Shown: positions 14,892 through 23,825 of the stretch, in pieces
Layout: every line of letters starts with the position of its first letter
How positions within the stretch are numbered: position 1 is the first letter of the stretch
From: Fulvivirgaceae bacterium JP3-4
Lineage (GTDB): Bacteria; Bacteroidota; Bacteroidia; Cytophagales; Cyclobacteriaceae
Assembly: GCA_029309925.1 (NCBI GenBank)
Contig: JARKND010000005.1
Span: forward strand, 1-64,000
Direction of reading: 5' to 3'
DNA length: 64,000 bases
Notes under the pieces: model-generated
Database searches by the model: none
What the model saw: the letters and a program-made list of their open reading frames with translations, nothing else
What the model was told of the DNA's origin: nothing
Made by a program: the position numbers and the translations under genes

Positions 14892-16784
14892 ATGGAGTCC
14901 CCACATCTAGCTATTGTTGCGCTCGTTGCAGCATTGTGCATTTCTACGAATGCACAAGGTCAGCATGATGCATTTATAAAGTCGCTGACCGCAACCGCGT
15001 ACGACTCCTATCTTCACAATCCTGATACCGCAATTCAGTTGGGCAAGCAAGCCTATGAAATTGCAGTGCAAAATAATGATGTGTATCACGAAGGTTACGC
15101 AGCATTCGTGCTGTCAAAGGCATATTGGGTGAAAGCAAATTACAGGCTGAGCACTGAATATGGTTTCAAAGCAGTGAAAGTTTTTCATGATTCAAAATTC
15201 CGCCAGGAATACGGCATCAGTCTTTTGGCGCTGGCCAGAACGCTTGTTGAACTTGGGAATTTTTTGAAGGCCGAAGAGTTGCTGACGATGGCCCAACAAG
15301 TTGCGCGCGAGATTCCCGATGAGCGCCTACTGGCTGAAACTTTTCGCGAACGGTCTTACTATCTGACAGAACTCAACCAGCTTGATTCAGCTCTTCACTA
15401 CACCGATAAAGGGCTTGTGTTATTTCAAAAACTTGGCGATTCGCTTGACGTGAGCGTTCTCTATAGCCGCAAGTCACGGATACTTTTTGCAAAGAAGGAA
15501 TATCAGGCGAGCAGGCAATATGCATTTCGCGGCATGTTGATGGACACACTTGTAGGTAACCGGAGAGGTCTGGCGATTTCATATTTTCAGGCCGCGCAGA
15601 ATGAGCATCAGCTTCGGAACCTTGGCAACGCAGAACGGCTACTCCGCCACTCTATTCGGATCAATGAAGAAATCGGAAACCTGAGCTCACTGGTCAGGGC
15701 GCATGAGTTGCTTGCGACCGTGTACAGCGAAACAAAACGACCAGAGCTTGCGCTTGCAAACATGACCATTGCCAGTCACTATAAGGACAGCCTTTATAAT
15801 GCCGAGAAGAGCGGGCAGGTGCAGGAGATGCAGTCCCTTTATGAACTCGAAGGGAAAGAAAGTCGGATTCAGCTTCTTGAGCAGGAAAAGTCGCTGCGCG
15901 AGCAGGATGTGAAAAATCAACGGTTGTTTCTGATTGTCCTTCTTGTCGGCATGCTATTCCTTGTCGCAGTTCTCTTCTTTCTCACCAGGCTACGCTCCAT
16001 CCAAACGCGCACAAACAAAAACCTTGCGCTGAAGAATATTGCCATCGAACAACAGAAGGAAGAGATGCAGGCACAGGCCGAGAAGCTCCAGCAACTAAAC
16101 CAGCTTCAGACTAAACTTTTTTCCGTGATCAGTCATGACCTGCGAGGCCCGGTGGCGAATCTCCAGTCATTGCTCGACCTTCTGACGAAAAAGCTTCTGA
16201 CGCACGAGGAATTTCTGAGCGTATCCGACAAACTCAAGACGAATCTCAATGTAACGCAGCGGACCCTTGAGAACCTGCTGAGCTGGGCACTGAGCCAGAT
16301 GGACGGAATAAAAACAGAAAAGAAAAAAATTGACATCGAACTGTCCATCGATGAAGCATGTCGCCTGATGGACGAAGCAGCTACGCGCAAAGCGATCGCG
16401 ATTAAAAAGCAGGCAATGTCAGGCCTGATGGTAGAAGCTGATCCGGACCAGCTTCAACTCATTCTCAGAAATATCATTCACAACGGAATCAAGTTTTCCA
16501 AAGTTGGCGATGAGGTGAAAATTGAGACCACACGAACCAATGGCCACTGCGTAGTATCGGTCAAAGATTCCGGTATCGGAATGTCAAAAGAAGAAATTGA
16601 AACGCTCATGGGTAGTTCGCGTGAGTATTTTACAAAACGCGGAACGCAGCAGGAAAAAGGTACCGGCCTGGGTTTGCTTCTCTGCAAAGAATTTATCGAA
16701 CGCAATGATGGTACGATGAAGATCTCGAGCGAGACAAACAATGGAACAGAAGTCAGGTTTACCCTGAAGCTCGCTTCCTCTTAA
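14892..16784 (+). CDS. TPR-containing sensor histidine kinase
   Basis: A 630-residue protein. A signal peptide (about 1-23) is followed by a periplasmic tetratricopeptide-type helical array (about 30-310), a coiled coil, one transmembrane segment (about 345-365), a second coiled coil, and a HisKA domain with His415 in SHDLRGP. The ATPase domain has NIIHNGIKFS, DSGIGM and GTGLGL. This design, with TPRs sensing in the periplasm, is common in Bacteroidota. No response regulator gene lies beside it. Its stop overlaps that of the convergent CDGSH gene by 3 bp. Confidence 0.9.
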   Translation: MESPHLAIVALVAALCISTNAQGQHDAFIKSLTATAYDSYLHNPDTAIQLGKQAYEIAVQNNDVYHEGYAAFVLSKAYWVKANYRLSTEYGFKAVKVFHDSKFRQEYGISLLALARTLVELGNFLKAEELLTMAQQVAREIPDERLLAETFRERSYYLTELNQLDSALHYTDKGLVLFQKLGDSLDVSVLYSRKSRILFAKKEYQASRQYAFRGMLMDTLVGNRRGLAISYFQAAQNEHQLRNLGNAERLLRHSIRINEEIGNLSSLVRAHELLATVYSETKRPELALANMTIASHYKDSLYNAEKSGQVQEMQSLYELEGKESRIQLLEQEKSLREQDVKNQRLFLIVLLVGMLFLVAVLFFLTRLRSIQTRTNKNLALKNIAIEQQKEEMQAQAEKLQQLNQLQTKLFSVISHDLRGPVANLQSLLDLLTKKLLTHEEFLSVSDKLKTNLNVTQRTLENLLSWALSQMDGIKTEKKKIDIELSIDEACRLMDEAATRKAIAIKKQAMSGLMVEADPDQLQLILRNIIHNGIKFSKVGDEVKIETTRTNGHCVVSVKDSGIGMSKEEIETLMGSSREYFTKRGTQQEKGTGLGLLLCKEFIERNDGTMKISSETNNGTEVRFTLKLASS

Positions 16785-17206
16785 CCTACGAAGCCATTGC
16801 GCTTGTGCGAGCCATCGCAATACGGTTTATTTCCAGAACCGCCACAGCGACAAAATGCAGTCACATTATTTTTTCTCGTAATATTCCCTGCACTATCCTT
16901 TACGCTGACATTGCCGTAGACAAGCAATGGGCCGTTCTGCAAGGTCTCAACAATGGTCTCTGCTTCAACTTTTACAGGCTCTTCGCTGTCGCGATTGAGG
17001 TAGTAGCTCAATGCACCTGACGGACATTTTTTCACCTGCGTAATTATCCTGTCAGTGGCTGCGCCCTCAATTGTAACCCAGGGTCTTTTCCGTGGATCGA
17101 ACACTTCTCCGAGGCCGCGAAAACAGATTCCCGAATGGATACACTCAGATGGTTTCCAAACAACAGTAACTTCTCCGTTGGAATATTTTTTTGTTATGTC
17201 CTTCAT
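16781..17206 (-). CDS. Fused Fer4_19 and CDGSH iron-sulfur protein
   Basis: A 141-residue protein with two cluster-binding modules. The N-terminal Fer4_19 (divergent mono-cluster ferredoxin) region covers about 8-70, with cysteines at 22, 28 and 61. The C-terminal CDGSH region covers about 95-140, with Cys119, Cys121, Cys130 and His134 (CRCGG...CDGSH), the 3Cys:1His set of NEET 2Fe-2S proteins. Its role is probably electron transfer or cluster handling. The ATG at 17206 starts the domain; a longer frame to 17257 runs into OsmC. It is the last gene of the five-gene redox operon. Confidence 0.9.
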   Translation of the reverse strand: MKDITKKYSNGEVTVVWKPSECIHSGICFRGLGEVFDPRKRPWVTIEGAATDRIITQVKKCPSGALSYYLNRDSEEPVKVEAETIVETLQNGPLLVYGNVSVKDSAGNITRKNNVTAFCRCGGSGNKPYCDGSHKRNGFVG

Positions 17207-17249
17207 AAGCTCAGGCGTTTTGCGTTCACTCCGAACAAAGACTGGATTG

Positions 17250-17651
17250 CTAAGCAAGTTCCGTCAGCATTTCTATCGGATTTACGAGGATTTTATGGAT
17301 CGGACAAGCATTGGCAATCTGAAGCATCCTTTTTCTCTGTGCGTCATCGATTGCACCATTGATGATCACTTTCCGGTGGAAAATCGTTTTTCCATCTTTG
17401 CTCTCCGTTCCTACTTTCACTTCTATACTCCCGATCTGAAATTTTTTCCGGTTTGCGTACATCCGCAAGGTGATGGCCGTGCATGAGGCCAGTGAAGCCC
17501 TTAAAAGATCTTCGGGTGAAGGAGCAATGTCAGTACCACCGTTGCTAACAGGCTCGTCAGATACAAATGAATGGGTATCGGTGATGAGTTCAGTTTTATA
17601 TCGATCATTGCCGATCTTAGCCGATACCCACTTGATTGTTGAATTATCCAT
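17250..17651 (-). CDS. OsmC family peroxiredoxin-like protein
   Basis: A 133-residue OsmC/Ohr-fold protein. The two conserved cysteines of the family are Cys57 (LASCTAI) and Cys116 (NACPIHK). OsmC and Ohr proteins reduce organic hydroperoxides with a dithiol centre; which subgroup this belongs to is not certain. The start shares one base with the stop of the nitroreductase gene (TGATG), which implies coupled translation. It is the fourth gene of the redox operon. Confidence 0.9.
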   Translation of the reverse strand: MDNSTIKWVSAKIGNDRYKTELITDTHSFVSDEPVSNGGTDIAPSPEDLLRASLASCTAITLRMYANRKKFQIGSIEVKVGTESKDGKTIFHRKVIINGAIDDAQRKRMLQIANACPIHKILVNPIEMLTELA

Positions 17652-18247
17652 CAAAATATTTCGTTCCTGACAAATTCCTGACGAAGGTAACGCTCACGCG
17701 GAGCAAGTTCTCTTACTTTCAGATGCTCGGGCAGCAACTGCACATCGCCAGGGTAGCCTATGGCCAGCACAACCACTGCCTCGAAATTGTCCGGGATATT
17801 CAGATTCTGATTGAGCTTTTCCAGGCTGAATCCTCCCATCTGGTGAACATTAAGTCCATGGTGTGCGGCCTGAAGAGAAAGCAGTGCGTTGGCCGCACCA
17901 AGATCGTAACGAGCTGAGAGGTTCGGCATATCGTTGCGGCTGTGTGTTTTTCGGATCAGACTCACCACCAGCAGCGGTGCATGCTTTGCCCAGATCTTAT
18001 TACTCTCGTTTAGCGAATCAAATATACGGTTATAAAGGTCAGTCTGATCTTTTCTTGCGTAGAGGTAAACCCAGGGTTGCTCGTTCACGCTTGACGGGGC
18101 CCACCGCGCAGCTTCGAAAAGCGAATTGATCTTTTCCTGCTCGACAGGCTTTTCGGAATACGCCCTTCTGCTTCTTCGTTGCTGGATCACGTCCAGCACG
18201 GGCGATTCAAACGATGCAGATTTTTGCCGATTCACAAACGGTGTCAT
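17651..18247 (-). CDS. Nitroreductase family protein
   Basis: A 198-residue flavoprotein of the nitroreductase superfamily. FMN-contacting segments include RRSRRAYSEKPV near residue 25 and WAPSSVNEQPW near 55, followed by the ALLSLQAAHHGL helix. These enzymes use NAD(P)H to reduce quinones, nitro groups or similar acceptors, and the natural substrate is not evident. It sits between a pirin and OsmC in the redox operon, 63 bp after the pirin gene. Confidence 0.9.
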   Translation of the reverse strand: MTPFVNRQKSASFESPVLDVIQQRRSRRAYSEKPVEQEKINSLFEAARWAPSSVNEQPWVYLYARKDQTDLYNRIFDSLNESNKIWAKHAPLLVVSLIRKTHSRNDMPNLSARYDLGAANALLSLQAAHHGLNVHQMGGFSLEKLNQNLNIPDNFEAVVVLAIGYPGDVQLLPEHLKVRELAPRERYLRQEFVRNEIF

Positions 18248-18310: not shown

Positions 18311-19180
18311 TCAGTCCTCAATGAGAATTCCCATCTTTCCTTTCTGGTAATCCCGCATCGCCTCAAGGATCTCAGTTTCGGAATTCATCACAAACGGTCC
18401 ATGCGCCACGACTTTTTCATTTAGGGGAAGACCACTCATGAAAAGAACGGTTGAATCTTCACTTGCCGTGATCGACACACCATCGCCATCGCGGTCAAAC
18501 AAAACTGCGTGCAGCGGTTCAACCAGGCCGAATCCGCCAACTGAAATTTTTCCGTTGAGCAGATAGAGGAATACATTGTGATCGGCAGGTACGGGTATCG
18601 AAATACTTCCATTCACCTTCATCTCTAACGTGGATGCATTGACCGGAGCTGGCGTTGGTATGACACCCTGCAACCCGAGCAAGTTACCCGCGAATACATT
18701 TACTTTCACAAGACCATCGTCACTGACGTATTTTTTCGTTTCATCTGCCTGTACCGGATAGTACGCTGGCTGATCCATCTTATTTTTCTTTGGTGTGTTG
18801 ATCCAAAGCTGAATGATTTCCTGGCGACCACCGCGTTCGTGGATGTCGTGTGGAGGACGTTCGCTATGCAGGACGCCCATTCCGGCATTCATCCATTGTG
18901 CACCACCAGCATAAACCACACTGTCATTTCCGCGGCTGTCGCGATGGTGCACCCCTCCCTTGAAAATAAATGTGACGGGTGAAAATCCGCGATGCGGGTG
19001 CGGACCAACTCCAGCGTGATCCGGCTCTACGTGCGTAGGCACTTTCACATCGGCATGATGCAAGAGTAAAAACGGATCGTGCTGTTCAACTCTTCCTGTT
19101 GGAAAAGCCTGTCTTACCGGCATGCCTCCCATGTCAAACGTTTCCGCGTATAGCGTATGCGTGACTTTCCTGTTTTTCAT
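18311..19180 (-). CDS. Pirin family protein
   Basis: A 289-residue bicupin. The N-terminal cupin has the likely metal ligands His61 and His63 (HPHRG), His105 and Glu107 (HSERP), matching the ligand set of human pirin. Bacterial pirins include quercetin 2,3-dioxygenases and proteins of unknown role. Length and the C-terminal cupin are normal. It is the second gene of the redox operon, 42 bp after the other pirin. Confidence 0.92.
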   Translation of the reverse strand: MKNRKVTHTLYAETFDMGGMPVRQAFPTGRVEQHDPFLLLHHADVKVPTHVEPDHAGVGPHPHRGFSPVTFIFKGGVHHRDSRGNDSVVYAGGAQWMNAGMGVLHSERPPHDIHERGGRQEIIQLWINTPKKNKMDQPAYYPVQADETKKYVSDDGLVKVNVFAGNLLGLQGVIPTPAPVNASTLEMKVNGSISIPVPADHNVFLYLLNGKISVGGFGLVEPLHAVLFDRDGDGVSITASEDSTVLFMSGLPLNEKVVAHGPFVMNSETEILEAMRDYQKGKMGILIED

Positions 19181-19222: not shown

Positions 19223-19933
19223 TTATTCCATTGGTACTTCCATCAGCAGCAACTCAGCATCCGAGTCTGCCTTGATCGAAATTTTATCAGTATCCCACAC
19301 GCCAAACCCATCGCGCTTGTTCAGCGACTGATTGTTGATGGTCACATCGCCTTTGATCACAAAAGCATACACGCCATTTCCTTTTTCCCTGATCGCGTAT
19401 TCTGTGGAAAATCCCTGTTTCAGATTTCCAAGATGGAAATACGCATCCTGGTTTATCCATACACCCTCATCATCTTGTCTTGCAGAGACAACCTGCTGGA
19501 GTTTATTCACACGATCCTGTGGATTGAACGTGCGCTGATCGTAGCGAGGCTGAATGTTGCGCTGCTTTGGAAATACCCAGATCTGGAGGAAATTGACTTT
19601 TGAATCTTTATTCTTATTGTATTCGGAATGATAAATGCCGGTTCCTGCACTCATGATCTGGACGTCATTCTGTTTGATCACTGCAACGTTGCCCATACTG
19701 TCTTTATGTTCGAGGTCACCTTCGATTGGAATGGAAATGATCTCCATATTATCGTGCGGGTGACGGCCGAAGCCCATTCCGCCATCGACAAAATCGTCAT
19801 TCAACACGCGCAGCGCGCCAAAATTCATCCTGGATGGATCGTAATAGTTTGCAAAGCTGAACGTGTGGTTTGTGTCGAGCCAGCCGTGGTTCGCATGGCC
19901 GCGGGTGTTGGCTTTGTGTAGTACGGTATTCAT
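19223..19933 (-). CDS. Pirin family protein, YhaK-like
   Basis: A 236-residue bicupin related to YhaK/YhhW. Metal ligands His58, His60 (HPHDNMEI), His102 and Glu104 (HSEYN) are conserved in the N-terminal cupin. Known relatives include quercetinases and redox-sensitive proteins of unclear role. The ATG at 19933 begins the family homology; the frame extends back to 20041 without support and would run through the operator at 20029-20042. It is the first gene of the five-gene redox operon and differs clearly from the second pirin, so it is not a recent duplicate. Confidence 0.9.
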   Translation of the reverse strand: MNTVLHKANTRGHANHGWLDTNHTFSFANYYDPSRMNFGALRVLNDDFVDGGMGFGRHPHDNMEIISIPIEGDLEHKDSMGNVAVIKQNDVQIMSAGTGIYHSEYNKNKDSKVNFLQIWVFPKQRNIQPRYDQRTFNPQDRVNKLQQVVSARQDDEGVWINQDAYFHLGNLKQGFSTEYAIREKGNGVYAFVIKGDVTINNQSLNKRDGFGVWDTDKISIKADSDAELLLMEVPME

Positions 19934-20028
19934 AGTCAGTAATTTACTTGTTAGGTTCGAATCTGTTTTCGGTCGTTTTCGATTCTGTGTTAAGTAACGA
20001 AAACCACATAATAAAGATACGTACAATT

Positions 20029-20042
20029 GTTGTATATACAAC
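20029..20042. promoter_or_regulatory. Palindromic operator upstream of the redox operon
   Basis: A perfect 14-bp palindrome, GTTGTATATACAAC. Its core TTGTA-N2-TACAA (20030-20041) recurs just upstream of the MarR gene at 23760-23771. It is 96 bp from the pirin start and 94 bp from the divergent permease start, so it could serve either or both. I read it as a MarR-family binding site. Confidence 0.55.
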
Positions 20043-20135
20043 TATTTTGGGATAAAATCGATCCCGACCTTCAACTAACTTCCTTATATTATACAAATAT
20101 GAAACATATAGATTATTTTCACGTTTGTAGAGCAT

Positions 20136-22769
20136 ATGCTTAAGGCGACTCCACCCCGATGGGCTGACCGGTTTCTCTCCTGGTATTGCAACCCTGAACT
20201 GCTGGAAGAGATTCAAGGTGACGTGTACGAGATTTTTGCACGCACGCTCAAATCTGGTAACAAGCGCATGGCTGACGTTGCGTTCGTCTGGAACGTCTTT
20301 CGGTTTTTTCGGTGGTCGAACATCAAGCGTACAAAGCGCTCACAACAAACTCCTCATCTTATGATGTTTCAGAATTATTACACTGTGTTCAAGCGAGGCT
20401 TTTTCAGGCAGAAAGGCTACTCGTTCCTGAACGTATTCGGACTGGCGATTGGTATTGCCTGTTTCCTGCTCATCACACTCTATATTAAAGACGAGTTCAG
20501 TTTCGACCGGATGCACAGCAAAGCTGACCGCATTTATCGCATTCACGAAATCTTTGAGGCCGATGGAGTAGGTGAGCGCTCAGCGAGTCAGCCATTCCCG
20601 CTGGCGGAGGCAATCAAGAACGACTACAACGGGCAGGTTGTCGAAGCAGTCCGTTTCTTCAACTTCCAGGCGCCTACCCTGGCCGTTGCAACGACTGACA
20701 ATACAAAGGAGTTTAATGAAGCGCGTCTCTTTTTCACCGACTCCACGTTTTTCAACATGTTTGATTTCAAGATTGTGAAAGGCGATGCAAAGTCAGCGCT
20801 TAGCAACACACATTCTATTGTGCTCACTCAAAGCATGAGTCAAAAGTATTTCGGGGATGTGGACCCGATGGGGAAGTTTCTGCGCTTTCAGGGCAATACC
20901 AACCTGCTTGTCACAGGCGTGATGGAGGATGTTCCCCCGAATACACATTTTCAATTCGACTTCCTCGTTTCTTTTCAAACCCTGAAGGAAAGTTACAATG
21001 GACAGCTTCCCGAGACCTGGTACTGGAATCCCTGCTGGACGTATTTGTTGTTGAAAGATCCTTCAGATGCGGCCAGGCTTGAGGCGCAGCTGCCAGCGTT
21101 CGTGCAGAAGTATTTTCCAGACTTCATTCGCAACGATGTAACACTTGAGCTTATCCCTTTAACTGACATCCACCTCAAATCACACATGGATTACGAAATT
21201 CAACCGAATAGCAGCATCACGACTATTTATGTGTTTGCTTCGATCGCGGCTTTCGTTCTGCTCATCGCGTGTATCAACTTCATCAACCTCAGCACAGCGC
21301 GTGCGGCTAAACGGGCGAAGGAAGTAGGCATGCGAAAAACCCTCGGCAGCGAGCGCACGCAACTGGTGACGCAATTCCTTTTTGAGTCAATCATGCTCAC
21401 GTTGCTTTCGGTTGTGTTCGCGGTGGCGATCGTCCTCCTCACGTTGCCGCTCTTCAATTCGTTTGCAGAAAAACAAATTGAGTGGACCAATCTGCTCGAA
21501 CCATTCTATATCCTGTTATTGCTGGGATTGCCACTCGCACTCGGATTCGTTTCAGGCATTTATCCGGCATTTGTGCTCTCATCGTTCCGTCCGATTACAG
21601 CACTGAAGTCGAATGCAAGTCAGGAGCGCGGTGCAACATTCCGAAAGGTGCTTGTCGTGGTACAATTTTCATTGTCGATCATCCTTCTGATCGGAACAGG
21701 TGTGGCCATCGACCAGCTCAACATGTTGCAGGAAAGTGACACAGGCTTTACAAAGGAAAATGTCATTATGATTCCCGTGTCCCGTTCACCTATTGCAAAC
21801 GTGTATGAGCCACTCCGGAACGAGCTGCTAAGAAATCCAAACGTCATCGAAGTGACAGCGCTCGAGGAAATCCTTGGCTCAAAGCATCAGGTAGGAAATT
21901 ACAACTTCGAAGGACTTGAGGAGTCGAAACCATTCCCACGACTGAACATTCGTCATCATTTCCTCAAAACATTTAACATCCCGGTCGTGGCCGGCCGTGA
22001 TTACTCAGAAGATATCGTGACGGATGACACGCTGGCACTTGTGGTAAACGAATCGCTGGTGAAGCAGATGGGATGGAAATCAAATGAAGAAGCGATAGGC
22101 AAAAAATTCAGTACACGGCCGAACCGGAAAATTGTTGGCGTTGTAAAGGATTTCAATTTCACATCTCGTCATCAGCCGATCCGTCCGCTTGTAATGGACC
22201 TGAACCTCAATCCGCGCGCATTTGATCTTTTCATCAAATACATGGCGGTACGCATCAGCAAAGATGACGTTGCAGGAACAATCGACTACATGCAGAAACA
22301 ATGGAAGGCACAAATGCCGGGATGGCCATTTGAATATTTCTTCCTGGAGAACAATCTTGAAAACCTGTACAAAGCTGAAAACAAGATGAGCAAGATCACT
22401 TTGATCTTTTCGGGATTATCGATTCTCGTGGCGTGTCTCGGTTTATTCGGACTCTCCACTTTTACTGCTGAGCAGAGAAAAAAGGAAATGAGCATCCGCA
22501 AAGTGATGGGAAGCTCCGACTCAGAAATTTTCCTGCTATTCTCGAAGCGATTTTTCGTTTTGATCCTGATCGCCAATGTGGTTGCGTTTCCGCTTGCCTA
22601 CATCATGATGAAGCAGTGGCTGGGAACATTTGCCTACCAGGTAGACATTGACTTCACCTTGTTTATTCTTGCAGCGTTGGCGGCTGCCCTGATCGCGTTT
22701 CTCACGATCTGCTACCAGGGTTTTCGCGCAGCCCATACCAATCCGGCTGAAGTATTGAAAAATGAATGA
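20136..22769 (+). CDS. FtsX/MacB-type ABC transporter permease with prefix domain
   Basis: An 877-residue membrane protein. The first 75 residues match the permease prefix domain that precedes some Bacteroidota MacB-like permeases. Then come a transmembrane helix, a MacB periplasmic core domain, three helices forming an FtsX unit (about 370-480), a second core domain (about 510-740) and a final FtsX unit (about 755-877). Such proteins belong to mechanotransmission ABC systems. No ATPase gene is adjacent, so the partner is encoded elsewhere or is absent. PadR follows after 57 bp. Confidence 0.9.
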   Translation: MLKATPPRWADRFLSWYCNPELLEEIQGDVYEIFARTLKSGNKRMADVAFVWNVFRFFRWSNIKRTKRSQQTPHLMMFQNYYTVFKRGFFRQKGYSFLNVFGLAIGIACFLLITLYIKDEFSFDRMHSKADRIYRIHEIFEADGVGERSASQPFPLAEAIKNDYNGQVVEAVRFFNFQAPTLAVATTDNTKEFNEARLFFTDSTFFNMFDFKIVKGDAKSALSNTHSIVLTQSMSQKYFGDVDPMGKFLRFQGNTNLLVTGVMEDVPPNTHFQFDFLVSFQTLKESYNGQLPETWYWNPCWTYLLLKDPSDAARLEAQLPAFVQKYFPDFIRNDVTLELIPLTDIHLKSHMDYEIQPNSSITTIYVFASIAAFVLLIACINFINLSTARAAKRAKEVGMRKTLGSERTQLVTQFLFESIMLTLLSVVFAVAIVLLTLPLFNSFAEKQIEWTNLLEPFYILLLLGLPLALGFVSGIYPAFVLSSFRPITALKSNASQERGATFRKVLVVVQFSLSIILLIGTGVAIDQLNMLQESDTGFTKENVIMIPVSRSPIANVYEPLRNELLRNPNVIEVTALEEILGSKHQVGNYNFEGLEESKPFPRLNIRHHFLKTFNIPVVAGRDYSEDIVTDDTLALVVNESLVKQMGWKSNEEAIGKKFSTRPNRKIVGVVKDFNFTSRHQPIRPLVMDLNLNPRAFDLFIKYMAVRISKDDVAGTIDYMQKQWKAQMPGWPFEYFFLENNLENLYKAENKMSKITLIFSGLSILVACLGLFGLSTFTAEQRKKEMSIRKVMGSSDSEIFLLFSKRFFVLILIANVVAFPLAYIMMKQWLGTFAYQVDIDFTLFILAALAAALIAFLTICYQGFRAAHTNPAEVLKNE

Positions 22770-22826
22770 TCGTTGCTGTACTCCCGCACAGGAAGACAGT
22801 GCTGAGAAAAAAATGATAAACTAAAG

Positions 22827-23162
22827 ATGAAAGGAACATACATCGGAGAACTTGAAGAACTAGTGTTACTGACCGTAGGTGTTTTGTACAACGATGCCTA
22901 TGGCGTTGCCGTGATGGACGAAATTGAAAAGCAAACGGGTCGCAGTCTAAATATCAGCGCGGTTCACGCGGTGCTGAAACGCCTCGAAGAAAAAGGTCTT
23001 GTCAATTCACAAATGAGCGACCCCACCAACGAGCGCGGTGGACGCAGAAAACGAATTTTTACGCTGACAGCTGCCGGAAGAAAAGCACTGGCCGATGCCA
23101 ATGAACTGAGAAATCAATTGTACAATCAGATTCCGAAGGTATCGTTGCAGTTCCAGGCATGA
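22827..23162 (+). CDS. PadR family transcriptional regulator
   Basis: A 111-residue winged-helix protein. The PadR pattern is clear: LEELVLLTVGVL at the start, a recognition helix with SAVHAVLKRLEEKGLV, and a wing with RKRIFTLTAAGRKAL. Members repress genes for stress or detoxification transport, often the neighbouring operon. Its position 57 bp after the prefix-domain permease suggests they are one transcript and that it controls the permease; this pairing recurs in Bacteroidota. Confidence 0.92.
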   Translation: MKGTYIGELEELVLLTVGVLYNDAYGVAVMDEIEKQTGRSLNISAVHAVLKRLEEKGLVNSQMSDPTNERGGRRKRIFTLTAAGRKALADANELRNQLYNQIPKVSLQFQA

Positions 23163-23196
23163 GGGCAAGTTCCAGGTTCCAGGTGCCAGGTTCCAA

Positions 23197-23267
23197 GATC
23201 CAAATACCAAGGATCAAAACGAAAGAAGACAACTCGCCATTTGGTTTTTCGATCTTGGTATTTGGAT
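23197..23267. terminator. Bidirectional hairpin between padR-type and marR-type genes
   Basis: Arms at 23197-23215 and 23251-23267 pair almost perfectly around a GATCCAAATACCAAG core, with an AAAA/TTTTT context on both sides. It lies between the convergent ends of the PadR and MarR genes and probably terminates both. The flanks carry imperfect GGTTCCAG and TTTGGATT repeats. Confidence 0.6.
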
Positions 23268-23285
23268 TTTGGATTTTGGATCTTT

Positions 23286-23738
23286 TTACCCCCTGAGTTT
23301 ATCCAGAATTCTGTTCAGCTCCATTGCTTCCTGCTTCGTGATGTTCTTCAGCATTGACATCCAGGTTGCTTCATCCTGATCAATTGATTTAAGAACACTA
23401 AGGCCCTTCTCTGTAATCGAGATATCGACTTGCCTGCGATTGTTCTCGCAAATCTCGCGGCTGACACAATCTTTTTGACGGAGCTTCTCAACCAAACGAG
23501 TTGCGTTGCTGTTCTTGTCGAGCATGCGTGAGGTAATTTCAGCGAGCATCAAAGGTTTGGGATGACTCCCCCGAAGAATGCGAAGCACGTTGAATTGTTC
23601 AGGCGTTATGTCGTGCTTCTTAAGGCGCGATGCATTCAGGCTGTGAAGCCAACTGCTCGTGAACAAAATATTCACTGCAGCTTTCTCGTGCTCGGTGGCA
23701 AACCGTTCCTGCTGAATTTCCTTTTCCAATGACGCCAT
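23286..23738 (-). CDS. MarR family transcriptional regulator
   Basis: A 150-residue dimeric winged-helix regulator. The DNA-binding core spans about 45-115: TPEQFNVLRILRG, a recognition helix near 75-88 and a wing with RRQVDISITEKG. Two cysteines, Cys91 and Cys97, lie between the recognition helix and the wing and could make it redox-sensitive, though this is only suggested by position. Palindromes lie directly upstream of its start and a matching one lies before the redox operon. The convergent PadR gene ends 123 bp downstream. Confidence 0.92.
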   Translation of the reverse strand: MASLEKEIQQERFATEHEKAAVNILFTSSWLHSLNASRLKKHDITPEQFNVLRILRGSHPKPLMLAEITSRMLDKNSNATRLVEKLRQKDCVSREICENNRRQVDISITEKGLSVLKSIDQDEATWMSMLKNITKQEAMELNRILDKLRG

Positions 23739-23746
23739 ATGTAAAT

Positions 23747-23772
23747 GTACAAACGATAATTGTACCTACAAT
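23747..23772. promoter_or_regulatory. Overlapping palindromes upstream of the MarR gene
   Basis: Two inverted repeats overlap: GTACAA-N7-TTGTAC (23747-23765) and ATTGTA-CC-TACAAT (23759-23772). They start 9 bp upstream of the MarR ATG, ideal for autorepression. The core TTGTA-N2-TACAA matches the palindrome upstream of the pirin operon in all ten non-central bases. Confidence 0.6.
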
Positions 23773-23825
23773 GGTTCCGTTCTCGCTTTGCAGAACGCGT
23801 TTCAGTGCCATTGCCACGTTCATTT

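Follow-up and report, generated by a model that had tools for sequence, protein, structure and literature searches.

The locus described here raises the question of whether two similar palindromes, one upstream of an operon headed by pirin genes and the other directly upstream of a gene for a MarR-family regulator, are operators of that regulator. The window, i.e., the whole stretch of 64,000 nucleotides that was analyzed, carries TTGTATATACAA at positions 20030–20041, before the pirin operon, and TTGTACCTACAA at 23760–23771, before marR. The former is contained in a perfect 14-bp palindrome, GTTGTATATACAAC (20029–20042), which the initial annotation had reported correctly, together with the coordinates of both palindromes and the identity of their ten non-central bases. 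The operon had been described as pirin-nitroreductase-OsmC-CDGSH, and this composition was confirmed except that the pirin genes are two and not one. The relevant features are as follows:

16781–17257, minus strand: Fer4_19 plus CDGSH iron-sulfur protein, final gene of the operon (start codon uncertain)
17250–17654, minus strand: OsmC-like protein (start codon uncertain)
17651–18247, minus strand: nitroreductase family protein
18311–19180, minus strand: pirin 2 (Pirin plus Pirin_C)
19223–19933, minus strand: pirin 1 (Pirin plus quercetinase-type C-terminal cupin domain)
20012–20019, minus strand: predicted -7 box of the pirin promoter, TATCTTTA, at an offset of 22 nt from the core start
20024–20047, minus strand: putative operator of the pirin operon, AAATAGTTGTATATACAACAATTG read towards pirin (core 20030–20041)
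20136–22769, plus strand: FtsX/MacB-type permease, divergent from the pirin operon
22827–23162, plus strand: PadR gene
23286–23738, minus strand: MarR-family regulator, proposed repressor (recognition-helix Thr80; Cys91 and Cys97)
23742–23749, minus strand: predicted -7 box of the marR promoter, TACATTTA, at an offset of 22 nt from the core start
23754–23777, minus strand: putative operator of marR, GAACCATTGTAGGTACAATTATCG read towards marR (core 23760–23771)

The marR gene and the pirin operon are therefore separated by the permease and PadR genes. Membership of the regulator in the MarR family was supported by a PF01047 score of 37.7 bits (gathering score, 24.6). PadR and FtsX/MacB-type permease genes also recur beside marR in relatives (L117, L119, L120), in another arrangement.

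Rarity and Genome-Wide Ranking of the Palindrome

The conserved 24-bp site has the consensus CAATAGTTGTATATACAACTATTG, with TTGTANNTACAA as its core, and it very probably serves as a genuine switch of gene expression. A chance match between the two palindromes would agree with the count within the window, where four matches with up to one mismatch were found against 1.7 expected, which is not striking; the window alone consequently proves nothing, and the proof lies in the comparative data. Likewise, when the flanked motif was sought in the whole genome with one mismatch, the 71 and 64 matches on the two strands did not exceed those of the control (80 and 99), so that a one-mismatch scan, as suggested in the initial annotation, is uninformative. 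In contrast, the exact core is rare, with five copies in the 5.8-Mb genome compared to 14 for the reversed control pattern. Two of these five cores lie 3.7 kb apart, and the probability that any two would be so close was estimated at about 0.013. The third copy is situated just downstream of sucD (L001), the fourth within a histidine-kinase gene (L003), and the fifth in a stretch devoid of complete open reading frames of at least 100 amino acids (L002).

A 24-bp profile trained exclusively on 17 marR-promoter sites of other genomes was then applied to the whole JP3-4 genome. The pirin promoter (20024–20046) ranked first with an E value of 0.002, followed by the marR promoter (23755–23776; E 1.6), whose site is thus the weaker of the two, and by a locus within a gene (E 2.2). 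Since both window sites occupy the top ranks and the third match is intragenic, the regulon in this genome probably consists of just the pirin and marR transcription units. Along with the rarity of the exact core, these ranks, the conservation of the site in relatives and its constant promoter offset (see below) make a match by chance extremely improbable.

Conservation of the Site before marR and Pirin Genes

The initial annotation had proposed that a single operator is common to marR and the pirin operon, and that this could be examined in related genomes. Twenty marR orthologues were considered, comprising that of JP3-4, those of 12 genomes of the same family and those of seven further Bacteroidota records; they share at least 62% identity and form a clade with 99% SH-aLRT support. 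The site was present in the own promoter of 18 of them, with no more than one of the ten core bases deviating, and a good site was not found before marR in the two others (G015 and G094). In several relatives, marR is located immediately upstream of pirin or other regulon genes.

G015 and G094 (L113, L114) are themselves devoid of a close pirin 1; in both, marR lies beside a nitroreductase gene and its operator has decayed.

With regard to pirin, a weight matrix derived only from marR promoters of other genomes was scanned over the 300 bp preceding pirin 1. Block-shuffled sequences gave a 99% level of 8.5 and a maximum of 18.6, the latter being used as the pass mark. A site was detected in all 12 genomes possessing both genes, with scores ranging from 19.4 to 32.2. 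In contrast, among 60 pirin homologues from genomes of the family that lack the MarR of the window, only four had one (Fisher p 1e-10, without correction for relatedness). Due to this relatedness, independent contrasts are few: the pirin tree yielded only two on well-supported branches, and for both, most random pairings gave a difference of the expected sign. Thus, the motif is both rare and present before the orthologues of both genes, in line with the proposal of a common operator.

Two of the four exceptions (G012 and G025) harbor a sister MarR with a TTGT-type operator. Profile matches in control genomes without the MarR of the window were mostly weak; of the two strongest, that in G016 adjoins an operon of a Thr80 MarR with FMN reductase and pirin genes, and that in G012 precedes a nitroreductase gene, the pirin promoter of G012 being matched as well.

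These data also bear on the possibility that another regulator, either a MarR paralogue or a protein of a different family, binds the palindrome and that marR is merely one of its targets. The genome encodes two or more additional MarR paralogues of the superfamily, and G138 carries a TTGT-type site, TTGTAAATACAACTAT, with a MerR-type gene on one side and an ECF-sigma and carotenoid-type cluster on the other (L109:6570–10500); this site is possibly an operator of the MerR-type protein and not of a MarR, so that palindromes of this sort may serve other proteins. However, the pirin site tracks the clade of the window's MarR in the comparison given above, the site is a promoter feature of the marR clade itself, and the promoters of the paralogues of JP3-4 (L182, L183) do not contain such a palindrome. 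We therefore regard control by another regulator as very unlikely and favor the product of 23286–23738 as the cognate protein.

Promoter Geometry and Proposed Mechanism of Repression

Autoregulation is common among MarR proteins, and the -33 region is a classical position at which a repressor keeps RNA polymerase away. The -7 element of Bacteroidota promoters has the consensus TAnnTTTG (PMC7366714). With the sites oriented to their genes, TAnnTTT began at an offset of exactly 22 nt from the first core base in 21 of 34 cases, and it was hardly seen at other offsets. The operator consequently overlaps the -33 region, which predicts repression by blocking of RNA polymerase as well as autoregulation. 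In JP3-4, the ATG of marR comes 3 nt after the -7 box, with a similar spacing in most orthologues, and this proximity suggests a conserved leaderless or nearly leaderless marR message.

The same geometry was informative about the divergent permease gene (20136–22769), which the site might control instead of, or besides, the pirin operon. Both in JP3-4 and in G133 the site is situated between two divergent starts, but in the remaining genomes that were read the gene is absent beside the pirin site, and the -7 box at offset 22 faces pirin, with none on the permease side. Regulation of the permease was accordingly not favored, and we consider it distinctly unlikely.

Based on these features, we hold it highly likely that the MarR protein of 23286–23738 has its operator in this palindrome and would repress both promoters. 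In this model, a MarR dimer would occupy the 24-bp site, so that RNA polymerase could reach neither the marR promoter nor that of the pirin1-pirin2-nitroreductase-OsmC-CDGSH operon. The proposed inducer is a small electrophile, with a quinone or a compound of the catechol type being most likely; it would bind MarR and release it from the DNA, and this release would induce the enzymes that remove the inducing compound. The sites, their conservation, their co-occurrence with MarR and the fixed promoter geometry emerge directly from the comparison of sequences, and at this level the link between marR and pirin is well supported. From them we infer binding of MarR to the sites and repression, and the evidence argues strongly for the repression mechanism as outlined.

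Conservation of the MarR Cysteines

The initial annotation had also considered redox control through two cysteines beside the DNA-reading part of the protein, i.e., a thiol switch formed by Cys91 and Cys97. Cys97 is found in 19 of the 20 orthologues and, judging from the alignment, at the base of the wing beside the recognition helix. It is, however, equally frequent superfamily-wide, since 67 of 82 other homologues (paralogues) with different or no operators have it too. Cys91 is unique to the JP3-4 protein, being absent from the other 19 orthologues, which excludes a conserved intramolecular pair. In addition, the functionally similar MhqR is described as sensing quinones without thiol chemistry, with Cys95 being dispensable (PMC6798810). 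The two-cysteine switch is thus unlikely, although Cys97 by itself may play a part.

Wider Regulon in Relatives and Comparison with Known Systems

In other genomes, the same operator precedes a YceI gene with a LigB-type dioxygenase gene (G133, G137) and a DoxX-like gene followed by pirin, FMN reductase and further genes (L036). A blind scan for TTGTATATACAAYWAT in 292 genomes of the order gave matches in 25 genomes, and the loci that were read mostly lie next to genes for MarR, pirin, YceI, OsmC, FMN reductase or Old Yellow Enzyme. The YceI-LigB genes of JP3-4 (C5:704 kb, L285) have no operator and were therefore left out of its regulon.

Beside one of the Old Yellow Enzyme genes, which has the palindrome in its start region, lies a gene (L295:1534–2553) for a predicted protein that joins a 2Fe-2S ferredoxin domain to an adenylate/guanylate cyclase domain.

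Several MarR-type systems invite comparison. The operator of OhrR, the MarR-family repressor that senses organic hydroperoxides and controls OsmC/Ohr-type genes, is built from TACAAT/ATTGTA elements. OhrR has a reactive cysteine near its N-terminus, whereas the JP3-4 protein contains only Cys91 and Cys97 and a cysteine before residue 70 was found in none of the 20 orthologues; moreover, the OsmC protein of the operon scored far under the Ohr-family cut-off (21.3 versus 88.85 bits). The core of marO in Escherichia coli is TTGCCNNGGCAA, and E. coli MarR resembles the present regulator in its 12-bp core with a two-base center and in its autoregulation. The two differ in the half-site bases and in their targets, a regulator cascade in E. 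coli and detoxification enzymes here, and the JP3-4 protein scored far under the MarR equivalog cut-off (25.3 versus 240 bits). HpaR (TIGR02337), the closest NCBIfam equivalog by score, reached 40 bits, below its cut-off of 121.2.

A functional parallel is MhqR of Bacillus subtilis and Staphylococcus aureus, a MarR-type protein that represses its own operon together with detoxification genes. MhqR, YodB and CatR are described as jointly covering nitroreductases, quinone reductases and ring-cleavage dioxygenases, a set resembling that found here across relatives (PMC6798810). Because of this resemblance to quinone-stress regulons, a quinone or similar electrophile is proposed as the ligand. MhqR itself senses quinones, whereas the link to quinones here derives from gene content; this is the least certain part of the model, with the chances for and against such a ligand roughly balanced. 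The MhqR operator given in that source, the 9-9 bp sequence TATCTCGAA-aTCGAaATA near the transcription start, differs from CAATAGTTGTATATACAACTATTG, which lies over the -33 region, and the conserved site does not match it; pirin, OsmC, CDGSH and YceI are not named in the part of the account consulted (PMC6798810). By analogy, the regulon appears functionally like that of MhqR but with a different operator.

Taken as a whole, this is a small stress regulon of an ordinary kind, that of a predicted MarR autorepressor, and apparently undescribed before: among open-licence papers, no MarR-pirin regulon was found described in Bacteroidota, nor any MarR regulon of such a type in Cyclobacteriaceae and their neighbors. 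What had been a guess from two sites becomes a regulon that is defined by the profile of its operator, the clade of its regulator and the geometry of its promoters. It also provides pirin, a widespread protein whose bacterial role is unclear, with a regulatory setting that includes nitroreductase, OsmC, FMN reductase, Old Yellow Enzyme, YceI and LigB dioxygenase, and this company points to quinone or other electrophile stress.

Operator Dialects and Residue 80 of the Recognition Helix

Related MarR proteins (about 39–52% identity) often carry ATGTNNNNACAT in their own promoters, and the same sequence is present in many pirin promoters of genomes without the MarR clade of the window. Residue 80, in the recognition helix, was the most informative and best-separating column with respect to operator class: of 32 proteins with TTGT operators, 30 have Thr at this position and two are exceptions, and Ser occupies it in all 17 proteins whose operator is of the ATGT type. 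Eight of the Thr80 proteins were retrieved through matches to the DNA profile or pattern and not by protein similarity. The equivalent residue in the recognition helix of E. coli MarR is also a Thr. The pattern could be explained by shared ancestry, as it involves only one to three independent changes on the tree. We tentatively suggest that residue 80 (Thr/Ser) of Bacteroidota MarR proteins may read the outer operator base pair (TTGTNNNNACAA/ATGTNNNNACAT), and that pirin-headed electrophile-detoxification operons may have switched dialects in evolution, an idea that is plausible but somewhat less than probable. If true, the Thr80/Ser80 pattern would represent a simple test case for the avoidance of cross-talk among MarR paralogues.

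Individual occurrences of ATGTNNNNACAT were located 30–44 bp before MarR starts at L019, L026, L029–L031, L034, L226, L230 and other loci, and in the pirin promoters of L128, L150, L153 and L162.
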